From Hydrogenispora sp. (lineage in GTDB: Bacteria > Bacillota > UBA4882 > UBA10575), in assembly GCA_012837705.1 (NCBI GenBank), contig DUQQ01000065.1, positions 1-59,791 on the forward strand: DNA of 59,791 bases, read 5' to 3'. The position numbers were made by a program, and so were the translations under genes. Shown piece by piece: positions 52,549 through 59,791 of the stretch. How positions within the stretch are numbered: position 1 is the stretch's first letter; the number at the start of each line of letters is the position of its first letter. The notes beneath the pieces are model-generated. The model was not told the DNA's origin. It worked only from the letters and a program-made list of their open reading frames with translations, and did no database searches.

Positions 52549-52764
52549 ATGGGAGAGATTATCCCGTTTCCCGTGAAAAAGACCGATGATATCTTTGAAC
52601 AAAAGGAATTAACCGACTACGTAATTCGGGAGAAGATTCTGGCTGGGGAGGCCGAGCTGATCGGTGTTTTTAAGCAGAACGGCTTCCCTTGTTCCTGCTA
52701 CCGGATGGAGTTTGATAACCAAGCCTATTACGTTTTCGATCTGACTACGCCAAGGGGCGAATAA
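52549..52764 (+). CDS. Small protein of unknown function
   Basis: The protein has 71 residues, with a good ribosome site (aaaggagagg). It is soluble and slightly acidic, starts GEIIPFPVKKTDD, and contains two cysteines in FPCSCYRMEF. I do not recognise a family. It is 46 bases after the mgtC-like gene. Confidence 0.7.
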   Translation: MGEIIPFPVKKTDDIFEQKELTDYVIREKILAGEAELIGVFKQNGFPCSCYRMEFDNQAYYVFDLTTPRGE

Positions 52765-52824: not shown

Positions 52825-53223
52825 ATGTGTCAAGTGCAAGGAGAAGATCTGATCCGGGCTTTAAAGCGCTTTAAAAGTCTAGCCAAGCAAGATCTTCTCG
52901 CCAGTGAACGGACGAACGACCCGTGTTTTTGGAGAACGCACGCTGAAGCGCGCCGGAAGGAATACACCAGACTGATCCATCTGGTCGAAAATTCCGGCGT
53001 TGAAAAGGCGTGCGTTTATGCGTTACAGAGTTATAAGAAAATTCGTTTAAACAATGCGGAGGAACGAAACCCGGAACAGGACGGCTCGCGGCAGGCGCTA
53101 GAGCTGTTCTTTGAAATCATCGGTAGTTCGCCAGGGCGTCTGGGGAAATGGCTCCAGGAAAGACAGATTGAAATGGAGCCCCCCCACGACGCCTTTTTTG
53201 CGCAAGAAACTCAGCTTGTGTAG
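52825..53223 (+). CDS. Protein of unknown function
   Basis: The protein has 132 residues from ATG 52825, behind gggggagataagg. It is rich in helix and charge (LIRALKRFKSLAKQDLL; YTRLIHLVENSGVEKA), with no membrane segment and no motif that I recognise. It precedes the SPOCS gene cluster, so a sporulation role is possible but not shown. The next 270 bases hold no gene I can support. Confidence 0.65.
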   Translation: MCQVQGEDLIRALKRFKSLAKQDLLASERTNDPCFWRTHAEARRKEYTRLIHLVENSGVEKACVYALQSYKKIRLNNAEERNPEQDGSRQALELFFEIIGSSPGRLGKWLQERQIEMEPPHDAFFAQETQLV

Positions 53224-53496
53224 GAACAAGTTCGGAACAGGAAAACACGGGTGAAAAAGGCGCTGACCGCCATGGTGAGCTGCGCCCATTTTTATTTCCT
53301 TCTCGACGAAGGGGGTAGTTGGGGGCGTTCATCAAGGGCGGTTTTTTTCTTCCTGGCTTGTTTTCTTTTTTTTCGTGGCGATAAGCACCTTGCTGCGGAC
53401 CAGCATATACTGTACTAGTCCTAAATTTAGTTTGGGAATGGTGCGGTTTTCCCCGTGGGCGGGGAGTTGGTCGGAGAAAGGAGGCCGAAAAGAATA

Positions 53497-56061
53497 ATGG
53501 ATTATGATGTTAACCAGGAAGAAGAAAAACAGGCGCTTGAGCATAAAGCGGAAGAACAGCAGTTACCAGGAGACGAGTCAATGGCAAAAGGGAATAAGAC
53601 AAAAAAGGCCACGCCTAACAGCGAAACTATTTCAGAAGAGATAGAGGCGGAACCGAAGGAAGAAAAGGATGGAGTGGCCAAAGGGAATCAGGAAATAGAG
53701 ATGGTTGGAATTGGAGAGAGAACTGGTAACGAGGGCGCGAGTAGAACAAAAACCGATCACCTGGAGGGTGGTGAAGGCGCGTCCAGTGGCGAAGACACCC
53801 CCGCAGTGACGACGGATGCTGTGAATGAACCGGAGACTTTTTCCAAAGAGGCCGTCGAAGAGGGGCTGGCCGGTTCCTTTCCATTTGAACCGGAAACGGG
53901 ACCGACTTTGGTGATGCCCGATCGGGTGCAGTTGAAAGTCCCAACGGAACCGACGGTACCAGCCTGGGTGGAAGAATTCAACCCACAGGTGACCCGGATT
54001 CGGCTAAACGATGAGCAAGTACTGAGGACGGAAGTCCCCAGGGATCAAGGGGTCGTTCAACAGCTCGAAGGCGCGGAGGTGACCGTTGGCGAGCGGGTTG
54101 CCCGGGTGCAACCGGTGGTCCGTCCCACTCAGTTGCCGAGCCCGGCGCTTAAAATCCGTAATATCACTGGTGAAGTGCGCAGGGTCACGGCTGAAGTGAT
54201 TAAAGACAAGGTTATTGTCCAGGGCATCGTCCATAAACAGATCTTCTTTGTGGGCATTGACAATATTGTTCGCCACTTCTCCGAAGATGTACCTTTCAGT
54301 ACTTTTATTGAAATTCCCGGTGCGGAACCGGGGATGAATGTTCAGGTGCTACCCCGGATCGAAAAGATCTTATTTCACCTTACGGATAATGGTTTCTTTG
54401 TCCATCAAAAGATCATTCTTGAGATCTTCGTGAAAGTCACCCAGTTTGTTCAGGTTGGCCTCGCGCTGGGAACCGGTCCTTTACTGCTTTTACCGCGGGT
54501 AGTCGGTGAGGGGGTCAAACAGGAGCTTGTTGAAAATCTGCTTACTTTAACCGTGCCTGCTCTAAAAGTGGATGAAATCCGCGGTGAAATTCGGGATCTG
54601 GAAACCGAGGTCATCCCCGACAAGGTGATCATCCAAGGAGTAATCCATAAACAGATCTTCTTTGTGGATCTGGAGAATAATGCTCGCCACCAAGCGGAGG
54701 ATGTGCCTTTCAGTTTATTCCTCGATCTACCCGGGGTGGTTCCGGGGGTTGACCTCCAGGTTCACCCCAGGATTGAAGGGATCTTCTTTGAGCTATTATC
54801 AACTACTGAGTTAAGGCAGAAAGTAGTAGTTGAGGTTTTTGTCAAAGCAACCGAAGCAATCCAAGAGCGGGTTGCCATCGGGACTGGTCCCTTGTTCAAA
54901 GTCGAGCAGGTGATCGGGGAAGGACAAAAGCAGATTTTAAACGAAGCGGTCTTAACTTTAGAGCGTGCCGCCATTAAAGTACGGGAGATTGTCGGTGAAG
55001 TACGGAGTTTAGTCGCGGAAGTGATTCCGGATAAAGTGATTATCCAAGGTGTGATCCATAAGCAAATCTTTTACATCGGTACCGATAATATCGAATACCA
55101 TCAAGCGGAGGATCTGCGCTTCAGTCTCTTCATCGATCTGCCTGGTGCGTTGCCTGGGTTGAACGTTACGATCCAGCCCCGGATCGAGACGATTCTCTTT
55201 AACCTAGAAACCGAAACTACCGTCCGGCAAAAAGTAATTGTGCTGTTTAATGCGATTGTTACGGAGACCATCCAAGTTCCTCTGGTGACCGGCGATTTTT
55301 CCCTCTTCAAATTAGAGCAGGTGATCGGGGAGGGGCTCCGGCAAATCCTGGTCGAGCGACGGGAGCGAATTCCGGTCCCGGTTGTCCGCAATGTGGTGGT
55401 GGAAGTGGTGGTTCCACCCGCGGGAATTGTTACCGGCCGTCAACAGATTATCGTGGAGAACGTTGTTGAACTGCCGCAACCGGCGGTAAAAATAAAGGAA
55501 GTACAAGGGGTGATCACCGATCTACGGGCGCGGGTGGTCTTCAATGATGCAGTGTTAGTCGACGGGATCATTAATAAACAGGTTTTCTTCGTCGGTGAAG
55601 ATGGTGTGGTACGTTCGGTGACGGAGCAGATTCCCTTCTCCATACTGGTGAATGTCCCTGGAATTACTCCAGATACACCATTTACCGTTGCTGTTGAGAT
55701 TGAAAACATCTCCTTTACCCTGTCACCCGATGGCCGTTTCCTCCGTCAGATCATTGTTTTGAATGCCGAAGTGACCGGGGAAACCCCAGCTCCCGAACCC
55801 TTCCAGGTTGTGACCGCCGTTACCGGGCCGGGAATTGTCACGGAGACGGTTCTGGTCCGGGCCCCGATCCAAACTCCAACTGGAGTTGAAGTTCGGGAGT
55901 TTCCGGTCGTAACCGAGGTATCTGGTCCGGGTATCGAGCGGGTAGAGAAGGCCGTTGTCCTCCTGGATGTGGTCAATGATGGGAATCCGAACCCGGTACC
56001 GATTGAAGTGGTAACCAATGTGATCTTTGCTGTTGTTCCGCTCTTGCCTGTGAGGGCTTAA
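53497..56061 (+). CDS. Large protein with four tandem SPOCS (DUF3794) domains
   Basis: The protein has 854 residues from ATG 53497, with gaaaggagg 13 bases upstream. There is no signal or membrane segment. Residues 1 to about 150 are a Glu/Lys-rich, low-complexity tail. Four SPOCS domains begin near residues 218, 356, 493 and 664; each reads roughly E-VI-DKVI-QG--HKQIFF, then EDVPFS-F-D-PG, then a C-terminal RQKVVVE-FVK-TE. A connector VIGEG-KQ-L-E-TL--PA-K precedes most of them. The fourth is the most divergent and sits behind a longer Val/Pro-rich linker. The C-terminus has two VVT-V-GPGI strings. SPOCS occurs in the spore protein SipL, which binds SpoIVA; a spore scaffold role is inferred. 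Confidence 0.9.
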   Translation: MDYDVNQEEEKQALEHKAEEQQLPGDESMAKGNKTKKATPNSETISEEIEAEPKEEKDGVAKGNQEIEMVGIGERTGNEGASRTKTDHLEGGEGASSGEDTPAVTTDAVNEPETFSKEAVEEGLAGSFPFEPETGPTLVMPDRVQLKVPTEPTVPAWVEEFNPQVTRIRLNDEQVLRTEVPRDQGVVQQLEGAEVTVGERVARVQPVVRPTQLPSPALKIRNITGEVRRVTAEVIKDKVIVQGIVHKQIFFVGIDNIVRHFSEDVPFSTFIEIPGAEPGMNVQVLPRIEKILFHLTDNGFFVHQKIILEIFVKVTQFVQVGLALGTGPLLLLPRVVGEGVKQELVENLLTLTVPALKVDEIRGEIRDLETEVIPDKVIIQGVIHKQIFFVDLENNARHQAEDVPFSLFLDLPGVVPGVDLQVHPRIEGIFFELLSTTELRQKVVVEVFVKATEAIQERVAIGTGPLFKVEQVIGEGQKQILNEAVLTLERAAIKVREIVGEVRSLVAEVIPDKVIIQGVIHKQIFYIGTDNIEYHQAEDLRFSLFIDLPGALPGLNVTIQPRIETILFNLETETTVRQKVIVLFNAIVTETIQVPLVTGDFSLFKLEQVIGEGLRQILVERRERIPVPVVRNVVVEVVVPPAGIVTGRQQIIVENVVELPQPAVKIKEVQGVITDLRARVVFNDAVLVDGIINKQVFFVGEDGVVRSVTEQIPFSILVNVPGITPDTPFTVAVEIENISFTLSPDGRFLRQIIVLNAEVTGETPAPEPFQVVTAVTGPGIVTETVLVRAPIQTPTGVEVREFPVVTEVSGPGIERVEKAVVLLDVVNDGNPNPVPIEVVTNVIFAVVPLLPVRA
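54148..55790 (+). repeat. Four SPOCS repeat units in the first protein
   Basis: Units start at 54148, 54562, 54973 and 55486. The first three are spaced 414 and 411 bases, the fourth 513 because of an extra linker. The conserved protein cores are VIPDKVIIQGVIHKQIFF and HQAEDVPFS. DNA similarity is patchy, which suggests old duplications. Confidence 0.88.
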
Positions 56062-56080
56062 CCGGTTGGCAAAATAGTTT

Positions 56081-56116
56081 GGAAAAATGGGCTTGTAAGG
56101 CCCATTTTTCCTTTTT
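56081..56116 (+). terminator. Terminator between the two SPOCS genes
   Basis: A perfect 12-bp stem (ggaaaaatgggc / gcccatttttcc) is followed by ttttt. The two genes are therefore probably separate transcripts. Confidence 0.88.
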
Positions 56117-56193
56117 AAGAAATGAGCACAATTCAGGAGTGTTTCATATATTATAATAGCCAACCGAGGGGAGAGGTTAAAGGGGGCAGGAGC

Positions 56194-58179
56194 ATGGAGT
56201 TAGCACTTGTCATTGGCGCTTTTGTTACGATTGTCGCCTTGATTGCCCTCTGCACATTCTGGTTTTTCCACCTTCACCGTCGCTATCTGGCCGTGGCTGA
56301 TCACTACGTCGTCTCAACGACAACAGAAGATGAACAATATTCTCCGGCGTGTCTCACCAGTACACCTAGCATTTCCGGAGAAAACCGGGGGAAGAAGCTT
56401 CTTTTAACTACTGATACATTGGACGATGAAGCGAGTCAACCACAAAACGCGGTCCCCAATGGACAAAAGCAACCGGAAAAAGAGAGCGGAATAAAGGAAC
56501 GAACAGGAGTTGAAGATGAAGAACAAGTTCTGAACGAAAGATTTGTATGTTTGATTGTCCAGAAGGGGGCAGCAGAACGGCCAAAAATGGAGGAACAGCC
56601 AAAGACGGAAGAACAGCTACGTACGGAAAAGCAGTTAAGGACGGAGCAACAACTAACGACCACGGAACAGCAAAAGAGAGAAGACCAACGAGAAGAGAGC
56701 GCCCAGTACAGGGAGGAAGGTGGGGGCGGAACTGAACAGTGGGTGGTATCGCCCGACTGTTCGCAGGCAAACAAGGAAGAAGAAGAGGATGAAGATGAGG
56801 AGAGCGTCGTCGTTCGAAAAAAAAAAGATGGCGCGGTGGAAAAACTGGAAGCGATGTGCACACAACCTAGTCCCGTGGAAGCGGCTCCTGCAGAAAGATT
56901 GGAAGGAGGAGATAGGTTAATGGATCCATTGGTGCGGGCAGAGGTGGTCATCGGAGAAGGTACCAAGCAACTGCTGCTTGAGACGAATGTTACTTTAGAC
57001 CGACCGGCGATTAAGATTCGGAATATTACGGCAGAGATCCGGAATTTGACCACTGAATTGATCCAAGATAAAGTGATCATCCAAGGAGTGCTCCACAAAC
57101 AGATTTTCTTCGTGGGTGAGGATAATATCGTCCATCACCAGTCGGAAGACGTCCCGTTCAGTACCTTTATCGATATTTTCGGGACCGAGCCGGGAATGAA
57201 TATACAGGTTCATCCGGTTATTGAGACAATTCTATTCTCCTTAATCAGGCCGTCCTTACTCCATCAGAAGGTTGTTGTCGAATTTTTTGTCAAGGTTACC
57301 GAGTCCAACCAGCTTAATCTGGTTGAAGGTGCTGGTCCGCTGGTCCGTTTGGACCAAGTGATCGGTGAAGGGACCAAACAGGAACTGCTCGAAAATACTG
57401 TTACACTTAACGTCCCGGCCTTGAAGATCGACGATATTACCGCCGAAATTCGTGACTTAACCATTGAAGTGATCGATGATAAGGTTATTATTCAAGGGAT
57501 TATCCATAAGCAGATTTTCTTCATCGGTTTAGATAATATCGAATACCACCAAGCCGAAGATCTGGAGTTCAGTACCTTCTTGGATATCCCTGGGGCGACG
57601 ACGGGGATGGATGTGGTGGTCGAACCAACGATCGAATTTATTCATTTTGAATTACTCGATGAAGAGACGCTACTTCAGAAGATTGTTGTTGAGTTTTTCG
57701 TTAAAGTAACGGAAAGTATTCAAATCAACGTGGTTCTTGGTCCTGGTGCGCTCCTGAAATTGGATACGGTTGTTGGTGAAGATACCAAGCAATTACTGGT
57801 CGAGAATACAATCACCCTTTCCCAACCGGCAATTAAGATCCGGGAGATCGTAGCCAAGATTGAGCGGTTAATGGCGGAAGTAATCGAAGATAAAGTGATT
57901 ATCCAAGGGGTGGTACATAAACAGATCTTCTTTATTAACGAAGATAATCTCGAGATCCACCAGAGCGAAGATGTCCCCTTCAGTACCTTTGTGGATATTC
58001 CCGGAGCGGTGCCGGGGATGGATGTACGGATTAAGCCGATTATCGAGACGGTGCTCTTCGAATTGTTGGATAGCACCACCCTCAGGCAGAAGGTGGTCGT
58101 GGAGCTGTTTATCAAAGTAACCGAGTCCCAACAATTACAGGTGCAAGTAGCTGCTCCCTATGGCCCATATTACTTCTAG
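56194..58179 (+). CDS. Membrane-anchored protein with three tandem SPOCS (DUF3794) domains
   Basis: The protein has 661 residues from ATG 56194 (agggggcaggag upstream); an earlier opening at 56122 lacks a ribosome site and would add a tail to the anchor. Residues 4-26 (LALVIGAFVTIVALIALCTF) form one membrane segment. A charged linker of about 240 residues follows, with Glu/Gln/Thr repeats and an acidic patch. SPOCS domains begin at residues 273, 410 and 547, exactly 137 apart, each with the connector VIGEGTKQ-L-E--TL--PA-KI. It ends with a short aromatic PYGPYYF. It may place the same scaffold at a membrane. A terminator follows. Confidence 0.9.
   Translation: MELALVIGAFVTIVALIALCTFWFFHLHRRYLAVADHYVVSTTTEDEQYSPACLTSTPSISGENRGKKLLLTTDTLDDEASQPQNAVPNGQKQPEKESGIKERTGVEDEEQVLNERFVCLIVQKGAAERPKMEEQPKTEEQLRTEKQLRTEQQLTTTEQQKREDQREESAQYREEGGGGTEQWVVSPDCSQANKEEEEDEDEESVVVRKKKDGAVEKLEAMCTQPSPVEAAPAERLEGGDRLMDPLVRAEVVIGEGTKQLLLETNVTLDRPAIKIRNITAEIRNLTTELIQDKVIIQGVLHKQIFFVGEDNIVHHQSEDVPFSTFIDIFGTEPGMNIQVHPVIETILFSLIRPSLLHQKVVVEFFVKVTESNQLNLVEGAGPLVRLDQVIGEGTKQELLENTVTLNVPALKIDDITAEIRDLTIEVIDDKVIIQGIIHKQIFFIGLDNIEYHQAEDLEFSTFLDIPGATTGMDVVVEPTIEFIHFELLDEETLLQKIVVEFFVKVTESIQINVVLGPGALLKLDTVVGEDTKQLLVENTITLSQPAIKIREIVAKIERLMAEVIEDKVIIQGVVHKQIFFINEDNLEIHQSEDVPFSTFVDIPGAVPGMDVRIKPIIETVLFELLDSTTLRQKVVVELFIKVTESQQLQVQVAAPYGPYYF
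56581..56700 (+). repeat. Glu/Gln/Thr low-complexity repeats in the linker
   Basis: Degenerate units of 5-7 codons of the form (K/R)TE(E/K/Q)QL are repeated: EEQPKTEEQLRTEKQLRTEQ and so on. The segment sits between the membrane anchor and the first SPOCS domain. It is likely a flexible or coiled spacer and prone to slippage. Confidence 0.7.
57010..58144 (+). repeat. Three SPOCS repeat units in the second protein
   Basis: Units start at 57010, 57421 and 57832, a strict 411-base period. The units are more alike than those of the first gene, mainly around VIxDKVIIQGVxHKQIFF and EDVPFSTFxDI. Confidence 0.9.
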
Positions 58180-58195
58180 ACAACTTTCCCCCGGA

Positions 58196-58231
58196 ATACA
58201 GGCCTCGAATTTTCCAGGCCTGTATTTTTTT
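58196..58231 (+). terminator. Terminator after the second SPOCS gene
   Basis: A perfect 10-bp stem (atacaggcct / aggcctgtat) with a 10-base loop is followed by tttttt. Confidence 0.88.
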
Positions 58232-58288
58232 TGTCCTGCCCTTACATATACATTATAAAGTGAAAGCTTACCGGGAGGGGCAAAATTA

Positions 58289-59791
58289 ATGGTCAAGCGG
58301 TGGCACGGCTCCGGCAGAGTAATCGTTAAAATTCCTTGGCCGTTCGGAACGAAGGTCCACCGCATTGATCTATCCATCACCGACCTGGTGGCAAGGTGGG
58401 AAAAGTCTACTGTGCAGCTTACGGTAGAAATGAAGCGGACGATCCAGTACATAACAGCAGCGGGTACGGTAATGACCTGGACGGACCGGGTGGTTTACCA
58501 AAAGGATCTTGTCTGTTCACCCGCGTTAATCCGCGGTCAACCATTACAGGCGATGGCAACCACCCTTTATTTTTTGGTCCACGACCAAACGGAGACGGCC
58601 GTTTTGGAACACGGTATCGGGTTGAGTTTCTCGGGTTGGGAACGTCAACTGTTGGTTCCGCAGTTACCGCCAACGGAAAACAGTTTACTGATCCGTGGAC
58701 AACAACTGGTCGCCACCGATTGTTATTTGCATACGGAAACAATCTATTGGTCGCCCTTAGCGCCGGAAGACGAACCGGTGGAGGTGGTTCTGACCGGTGA
58801 GCGGTTCATCCTTACCCCCGCAGGGATTCATTTCCAGGGGGAACTAGAACTCGCGACTGTAAAAGGCGGACGCAAAAAAGAACCCCTTTCGGTGCTGTTA
58901 CCGCAGCAAGTCCCTGCCGGTAGCGTACTGGTGGGTGAGGCAAAGCTTCAGGCCTGGAAAGTGGTGGAACCTGGTAAAGCCCTCCTGGCGGTCAAACTTA
59001 GCTGGCGCTTGCTCCAAGAGAAAACATTCCCGGTATTATTGGCCCCGGTGGGGCAGGGGGAGAGTTTTTTTCTCTGGCGTCTTTTGCACCAGGAAACCCG
59101 GATTTGGAGCGGCCAAACCCGGGTTAAGTTACCCGAAAAGGCAAAAATTATTGGGGAACTGACGGTTACGGCCGTCCAGAGTCGGGCGGTTAAGGCCAGA
59201 AATGAACTCTTTTGTATGGGCCAAATTACCCTTGATCTTTACTATGTGAACAACGCTGGCCAAGAAAAGTGTTATCGGGTACGAATTCCCTGGAAGGAAT
59301 GGGTGGCGACGGAAGAGGGTAGGGAAGCGCGCTCGGCGGAGAAGAGGAAGTACAAAATCAGGTATGCGAGGGTAAAAGGGAAACAGGTCCAATTTTTGAA
59401 CGGGGAAGATTTAACCCTTATCGTTCAGTTGGAGTACCTTTTAACGGTCGAGAAAAGAGAAAAAGCGGTTTTATCGGTGCCGACGAACATGGTGCCAACG
59501 GCAACGATTTTGGCGGAAAAAATCATTACGGAAGATGATTATGAGTATTATGTAGAGATTCCAGTCCACAAACCCGCAGATTTTCGGGAAAGCCACCGGT
59601 TATGGTGGGAAGCGGGAGATGTGGAGGGGGAAGCAGAAAATGGTGGAGTTTTTCTGAAAGCGCAACCAACCATTGTCTGGCAGTACCGGAGTACGGAGCA
59701 CAAGCTAAAAGTGGTTGAGTTCAGTCCTGTTTTGGCTTGGTTTCATCATGCCCCACCGACGCACCAGAGGGACCGGGTTTATGTGCATCTG
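58289..59791 (+). CDS. Partial gene: large beta-rich protein, possible divergent SPOCS relative
   Basis: An open frame of 501 codons runs from ATG 58289 (gggagggg nine bases upstream) to the window edge without a stop, so the 3' end is missing. There is no signal or membrane segment in the N-terminus (MVKRWHGSGRVIVKIPWPF). The product is rich in beta strands. At least two stretches look like stripped-down SPOCS units: a strand pair such as NELFCMGQITLDLYYV, then YRVRIPWKEWV where HQAEDVPFSTF would stand, then LTLIVQLEYLLTVE where RQKVVVEFFVKVTE would. Another is near residues 30-105. The resemblance is my reading and weak in identity. Position right after two SPOCS genes supports it. Confidence 0.75.
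   Translation, partial: MVKRWHGSGRVIVKIPWPFGTKVHRIDLSITDLVARWEKSTVQLTVEMKRTIQYITAAGTVMTWTDRVVYQKDLVCSPALIRGQPLQAMATTLYFLVHDQTETAVLEHGIGLSFSGWERQLLVPQLPPTENSLLIRGQQLVATDCYLHTETIYWSPLAPEDEPVEVVLTGERFILTPAGIHFQGELELATVKGGRKKEPLSVLLPQQVPAGSVLVGEAKLQAWKVVEPGKALLAVKLSWRLLQEKTFPVLLAPVGQGESFFLWRLLHQETRIWSGQTRVKLPEKAKIIGELTVTAVQSRAVKARNELFCMGQITLDLYYVNNAGQEKCYRVRIPWKEWVATEEGREARSAEKRKYKIRYARVKGKQVQFLNGEDLTLIVQLEYLLTVEKREKAVLSVPTNMVPTATILAEKIITEDDYEYYVEIPVHKPADFRESHRLWWEAGDVEGEAENGGVFLKAQPTIVWQYRSTEHKLKVVEFSPVLAWFHHAPPTHQRDRVYVHL

Follow-up and report, generated by a model that had tools for sequence, protein, structure and literature searches.

Beyond Bacillus and a few clostridia, the proteins of the spore coat and exosporium show little conservation, and which proteins take their place there is still an open question. 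Moorella, for instance, has yielded none of the known morphogenetic proteins of the exosporium (PMC8745062). Several spore morphogenetic proteins share the SPOCS domain, named after SpoVID, CotE, and SipL, whose superfamily includes CotE (PMC10867305), a protein that forms trimers and a 10-nm three-dimensional meshwork (PMC11980541). SipL of Clostridioides difficile has three DUF3794/SPOCS domains and a C-terminal LysM domain, which binds SpoIVA (PMC6436350). Here, we analyse a 59,791-base contig of a Hydrogenispora sp. genome (GenBank assembly GCA_012837705.1, contig DUQQ01000065.1), hereafter the window, in which three consecutive genes, named gene 1 (S4), gene 2 (S3), and gene 3 (S5), encode arrays of SPOCS units. 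The window is the complete contig, and its end truncates gene 3. The best reading of this cluster is a late mother-cell scaffold for the coat or exosporium. The three genes probably specify a conserved spore-envelope scaffold built almost entirely of tandem SPOCS units, expressed under sigma-K at a late stage in the mother cell, divided between anchored and soluble proteins, and possibly involving slippage. A repeat-based system of the spore envelope had been proposed in an earlier annotation made from the letters alone (the sequence-only reading). SpoIVA co-occurrence, sigma-K-like promoters, and deep conservation now back that proposal, of which we infer the localisation and function.

As assessed by Pfam profile searches, genes 1 and 2 score 178.5 and 145.1 bits, respectively, against the SPOCS/DUF3794 profile PF12673, well over its gathering cut-off of 23.6 bits (coordinates and E-values are in Table 1). 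This bears out the four and three tandem domains that the sequence-only reading had described in these two adjacent genes. Its regular unit of about 137 residues was found as well, with unit-to-unit steps of 138 and 138 residues in gene 1 and 137 and 137 residues in gene 2, save for a single step of 170 residues before the fourth unit of gene 1. The proposed division into an unanchored and a membrane-attached form also holds. Inspection of the gene 1 sequence reveals no obvious anchor, an acidic N-terminal region, and no Cys, whereas gene 2 has an N-terminal hydrophobic segment followed by a charged spacer of ∼206 residues, and its SPOCS array is likewise devoid of Cys. No LysM domain was detected in genes 1–3 by Pfam search, and the CotE model of Pfam has no match at these genes. 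Two further hits were discarded. The match of gene 1 to PF10842 (DUF2642), which at 24.5 bits is barely above the cut-off, overlaps a SPOCS unit and was taken to reflect either the same fold or chance, and a PADLOC match to PtuA was judged to be due to chance.

Gene 3 is more cryptic, because the window copy has no Pfam match, PF12673 included. We therefore used the full-length protein of a sister species (L046, 677 amino acids (aa)), which is 70% identical to the window copy. AlphaFold2, run with 20 homologues, predicts for this relative 30 long strands arranged as five groups of six, with a mean predicted local distance difference test (pLDDT) score of 85.6. In the model of the gene 2 array (mean pLDDT of 92.4) the strands fall into three groups of six. 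The mean within-unit loop lengths of the two models correlate with r = 0.99, as determined by comparing strand/loop patterns rather than by superposing the models. Profile comparison revealed weak SPOCS matches along the gene 3 protein, five of them in the profile of the sister family and stronger ones in a positional orthologue (L079). It is through its positional orthologues that gene 3 is linked to PF12673, which matches L079 (E = 7.7e-13, 48.9 bits) and the orthologue in Thermovorax (L118; E = 3.8e-20, 72.3 bits). Model and profiles agree and the orthologues are SPOCS-positive, so that gene 3, as predicted structure and sequence comparison present it, is a diverged five-unit SPOCS array, the diverged relative that the sequence-only reading had seen in this partial gene. 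Neither an alignment of S3 against the sequences of the PDB nor Foldseek searches of both models against the PDB produced a significant match, the best Foldseek hit having an E-value of ∼0.01 and a template modelling (TM) score of ∼0.1. The SPOCS fold thus goes unrecognised among solved structures in these searches, which makes the array a target for structural work. One Foldseek match of S3 to viral models (E = 2.3e-4) was dismissed as meaningless, having a TM score of 0.11 and a root-mean-square deviation of 34 Å.

All seven members of the genus and all other members of the family have S4 and S3 as a pair or show parts of the pair on short contigs, whereas in other families of the class the two genes are often distant from each other or on different contigs. 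Scanning 84,980 species genomes returned 71 loci. The soluble four-unit and anchored three-unit set occurs in the class of the window and in distant Bacillota orders, often together with a five-unit protein, and carriers include Candidatus Frackibacter, Fuchsiella, Halanaerobiales, Thermovorax, Tepidanaerobacter, and Fervidicola. Fuchsiella alkaliacetigena is a carrier in culture and is reported to form spores (PMC9387241). All three gene types, four-unit, five-unit, and anchored three-unit, are clustered in Thermovorax, Tepidanaerobacter, Fervidicola, and a metagenome-assembled genome (MAG) of Thermoanaerobacterales. In a tree of 120 units, many forks of which are unresolved, units group by their position in the array (28 label changes versus 81 in shuffles), which suggests that the arrays are old and position-specific. 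The largest SPOCS array met in this analysis belongs to Candidatus Frackibacter sp. WG13, with at least seven SPOCS genes in 13.6 kb (L110, 811–13625) that encode 2, 1, 5, 3, ∼4, 3, and 3 units.

SpoIVA was found in 16 of the 16 distant or named carrier genomes tested. Among 61 relatives, 42 have both SPOCS arrays and SpoIVA, 2 have SPOCS only, 12 SpoIVA only, and 5 neither (Fisher p = 0.015, uncorrected for kinship). This distribution helps to weigh the proposal that the proteins are components of the vegetative cell envelope, unrelated to spores. The transmembrane anchor and the sugar-pathway and glycosyltransferase genes in the neighbourhood could be invoked in its favour. The consistent presence of SpoIVA in distant carriers, the five relatives without either gene, which fit a link to spores, and the sigma-K-like promoter motif described below all speak against a vegetative role, which we consider highly improbable.

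Pfam searches identified CotJB, a CotJC-type Mn catalase, and an alpha/beta small acid-soluble spore protein at ∼41.6–42.8 kb of the window. The spore genes that the sequence-only reading had placed to the left of the cluster are therefore there, except that CotJA had no Pfam match in the open reading frame (ORF) tested. Its remark that a SpoIVA or LysM partner is missing is true of the window but not of the genome, which encodes SpoIVA on contig C90 and, as determined by profile search, a LysM plus SPOCS protein on contig C46, the SipL candidate. Sigma-K is encoded on contig C63, with a score above the curated cut-off. These genes bear on whether genes 1 and 2 could themselves be divergent basement-layer organisers of the SipL/SpoVID type that recruit SpoIVA directly. 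They belong to the same domain family, and SipL likewise has three SPOCS domains (PMC6436350). However, both lack LysM, which is the SpoIVA binder in C. difficile, and the genome has its separate LysM-SPOCS SipL candidate, making direct SpoIVA recruitment very unlikely. The LysM assignment also corrects the sequence-only reading, which had taken SPOCS for the SpoIVA-binding C-terminal domain of SipL.

The same genome encodes two single-domain SPOCS proteins, on contigs C37 and C11. Directly downstream of the latter lies a protein with collagen-like repeats (PF01391) that is truncated where the contig stops (L014, 2–709 and 896–1429, both on the − strand), possibly an exosporium nap protein next to a SPOCS linker. 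This gene pair has to be considered along with the alternative that the cluster is not a coat or basement scaffold but an exosporium basal-layer system, like the Csx proteins of Clostridium sporogenes. Purified exosporium contains CsxC (PMC4942563), the NCBIfam CsxC family (NF045794) matches genes 1 and 2 weakly (E = 2.5e-6 and 1.1e-6; 27.7 and 28.9 bits), and sugar-pathway and glycosyltransferase genes are common neighbours of the arrays. Yet both scores are far below the 135-bit cut-off and may merely reflect the shared SPOCS domain, CsxC has 14 Cys, in contrast to the Cys-free gene 1 protein and gene 2 array, and a transmembrane anchor suggests a membrane position for at least S3. We regard an exosporium system of this kind as unlikely.

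Genes 1 and 2 are each preceded by a promoter-like motif with the consensus GCAC-N15-CATATAYT, which is invariant while the 15 intervening bases vary. In the entire 2.41-Mb genome this motif occurs exactly twice, before genes 1 and 2 and on the correct strand, and in 16 genomes of the family it is found at these genes and in only a handful of other places. The pattern was derived from the window and family sites, and the fair test is provided by other families. Across the other families of the class, the motif lies upstream of 10 of the 18 genes that encode three or more SPOCS units, compared with 1 of 219 other genes (Fisher p = 4e-12, orthologous genes not being independent). Outside the class, a looser CAC-N15-CATATA precedes 5 of 62 versus 0 of 366 genes (p = 6e-5). 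Promoters recognised by sigma-K in C. difficile have AC at −35 and a −10 element such as CATATAAT, whereas those of sigma-E have ATA at −35 (PMC3789822). Because the motif is a good match to the former except for its spacing, we refer to it as sigma-K-like.

In S3 proteins, the N-terminal hydrophobic segment is single in lineages as distant as the class of the window, Halanaerobiales, and Thermosediminibacteraceae, and in distant S3 proteins it is mostly followed by basic residues. One family of this class, other than that of the window, encodes the anchor on its own, in a small ORF immediately upstream of the array. In view of the basic residues and the positive-inside rule, the S3 array should face the cytoplasm, a predicted topology that would suit a protein of the mother cell attached to the membrane that surrounds the forespore. 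We thus envisage that S4, S3, and S5 would be made late in the mother cell, most likely under sigma-K, and that the anchor of S3 would insert in this surrounding membrane, the array pointing into the mother-cell cytoplasm, where coat and exosporium are assembled. S3 could then nucleate a shell at the forespore membrane that S4 and S5 would extend, joining S3, or SipL, through SPOCS-SPOCS contacts of the kind found in the CotE meshwork. With units covalently linked, the proteins might act as rods or multivalent linkers. A slippery A10 tract (ten consecutive adenines) and an internal start site in gene 2 would allow anchored and free S3 to be made together.

Tracts of at least ten adenines are rare in this genome: there are four in total. 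Besides the one in gene 2, one is not part of a long open frame, another closely precedes a probable start, and the third is within a short ORF. The one upstream of a probable start (L163, 821, contig C78) precedes an OadB-like membrane protein, named by eye, and could be a leader feature. Between anchor and array, an A9–A10 tract is found in 11 of 12 genomes of the clade (nine A10 and two A9), and its length holds at 9–10 although the flanks vary and the linker ranges from 512 to 923 nucleotides (nt). In 4 of the 11 tract-bearing genomes, from three genera, anchor and array are in different frames. The frame shift required differs between species, which is why we prefer RNA-polymerase slippage to directional ribosomal frameshifting. 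The internal Shine-Dalgarno sequence and ATG at the start of the array are kept in all 11 genomes, and the overlapping TAATG stop is kept where that frame is open. Since slippage at A9–A11 tracts has been proven in other bacteria (PMC4256274, PMC3711429), we tentatively suggest that RNA polymerase slips on the A10 tract, so that gene 2 would always yield both anchored and free scaffold protein. Alternatively, there may be no programmed slippage at the RNA level, the tract being a phase-variation switch at the DNA level or the frame differences being assembly errors, which we consider about as likely as slippage. Homopolymers mutate readily, phase variation is known to be based on poly-A in some cases (PMC3711429), the frame differs between species, and the genomes are draft MAGs. 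On the other hand, the constant tract length amid varying flanks and linkers, the recurrence of out-of-frame cases in several genera, the rarity of such tracts in the genome, and the conserved internal Shine-Dalgarno and ATG are all points against a switch or errors. If slippage does occur, it would set how many nucleation sites there are per building block in a poly-SPOCS spore shell, and programmed slippage would be used in spore-coat morphogenesis.

Several observations weigh against the proposed spore-envelope scaffold. The motif has 15 nt between AC and CATA instead of the 16–18 usual in the C. difficile consensus (PMC3789822), and an ordinary sigma-K promoter would be expected before many spore genes, not just at two sites. 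Two relatives with fragmented genomes (G018 and G023) have SPOCS arrays but no SpoIVA match, and most carriers are uncultured MAGs. A close relative (G005) has lost the A-run and has anchor and array in frame, indicating that some genomes can do without slippage. The gene neighbourhood lends the scaffold support that is suggestive only: in raw counts, uncorrected for background, GT4 glycosyltransferases occur at a distance of up to six genes from multi-SPOCS genes in 34 of 80 loci (some genomes giving two loci), as do YkwD-type CAP proteins, also in 34 of 80, and GT2, GDP-mannose dehydratase, and nucleotidyltransferase genes are further neighbours. Self-assembly of the arrays would follow from analogy with CotE, and the support for the scaffold as a whole comes from sequence and predicted models.

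Table 1. Coordinates of the multi-SPOCS cluster and associated elements in the window
Feature	Position	Strand	Details and basis
Gene 1 (S4), soluble four-SPOCS protein	53497..56061	+	854 aa; PF12673 E 2.8e-53, four stretches; unit hidden Markov model (HMM)
Gene 1 units	~54052-54486, 54472-54900, 54883-55311, 55393-55818	+	Unit HMM
Gene 2 (S3), membrane-anchored three-SPOCS protein	56194..58179	+	661 aa; PF12673 E 7.2e-43
Gene 2 N-terminal part, one transmembrane segment (MELALVIGAFVTIVALIALCTFWFFHLHRR) and acidic variable linker	56194..56919	+	Sequence; recurs in distant three-SPOCS proteins
Gene 2 three-SPOCS array, units ~56917-57348, 57328-57759, 57745-58170	56920..58179	+	PF12673; AlphaFold2
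Gene 3 (S5), cryptic multi-SPOCS protein, cut by contig end	58289..59791	+	Five-unit model of full-length relative, profiles, positional orthologues
Sigma-K-like motif GCAC-N15-CATATACT upstream of gene 1	53385..53411	+	AC −35-like, CATA −10-like; kept in most family genomes
Promoter-like motif GCAC-N15-CATATATT upstream of gene 2	56126..56152	+	Same element in other families of the class
Imperfect inverted repeat GGACCAG...CTAGTCC overlapping gene 1 −10-like element	53397..53421	+	Unchanged in most genus members
A10 tract in gene 2 linker, candidate slippage site	56817..56826	+	93 nt before the array
Internal Shine-Dalgarno (GGAAGGAGGAGATA) and ATG at array start, with overlapping +1-frame stop TAA (TAATG)	56902..56922	+	Conservation
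Terminator-like hairpin and T-run between genes 2 and 3, then conserved ACATATA(C/A)ATT	58195..58232	+	Sequence; conserved in relatives

Other elements accompany the cluster. The inverted repeat before gene 1 is possibly an operator; no further copies of it were found, since even with as many as 3 mismatches allowed the 25-mer has a single place in the genome, which gives no indication of a wider regulon. In view of the terminator-like hairpin that follows gene 2, the cluster may comprise separate units. Two small conserved proteins (71 aa, 52549–52764, and 132 aa, 52825–53223), neither with a Pfam match, precede gene 1 in most members of the genus. A family of ∼142 aa, also without Pfam match, recurs beside multi-SPOCS genes in 18 loci, as exemplified by L129 (10395–10823, − strand), where it is on the opposite strand.

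How does this cluster compare with described systems? The SPOCS domain, its occurrence in tandem (three in SipL), and its role in spores are already known. SipL resembles the cluster in being a spore-morphogenetic protein with tandem SPOCS units, whereas the cluster proteins lack LysM, have four, three, and five units, and in S3 include a membrane anchor and an A10 linker. CotE, the outer-coat organiser of Bacillus, belongs to the same superfamily and offers a structural precedent for assembly into a meshwork, but it has one domain and trimerises, whereas the proteins described here chain many domains. SpoVID of Bacillus likewise uses SPOCS to recruit coat proteins, but it has a single N-terminal SPOCS, a LysM domain, and no membrane anchor. 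Similarity to the CsxC family of C. sporogenes exosporium is weak, sub-threshold, and limited to one SPOCS unit, and CsxC is a Cys-rich protein of about 273 aa. Tracts of A9–A11 are also found in tssM of Citrobacter and dnaX of Thermus, where they give long and short forms (PMC4256274, PMC3711429). The tract in gene 2 differs in joining a membrane anchor to a repeat array, and slippage on it is a prediction from sequence, namely that one gene would produce anchored and free forms. In the literature on the SPOCS domain or DUF3794, we found nothing on these multi-SPOCS clusters. What is new is a conserved, LysM-less, multi-protein set of SPOCS arrays, with its division into anchored and soluble members, a cryptic five-unit member, a dedicated promoter motif, and an A10 tract. 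Taken together, this set is a concrete candidate for coat or exosporium proteins in several orders of Bacillota, the cultured spore-former Fuchsiella among the carriers.

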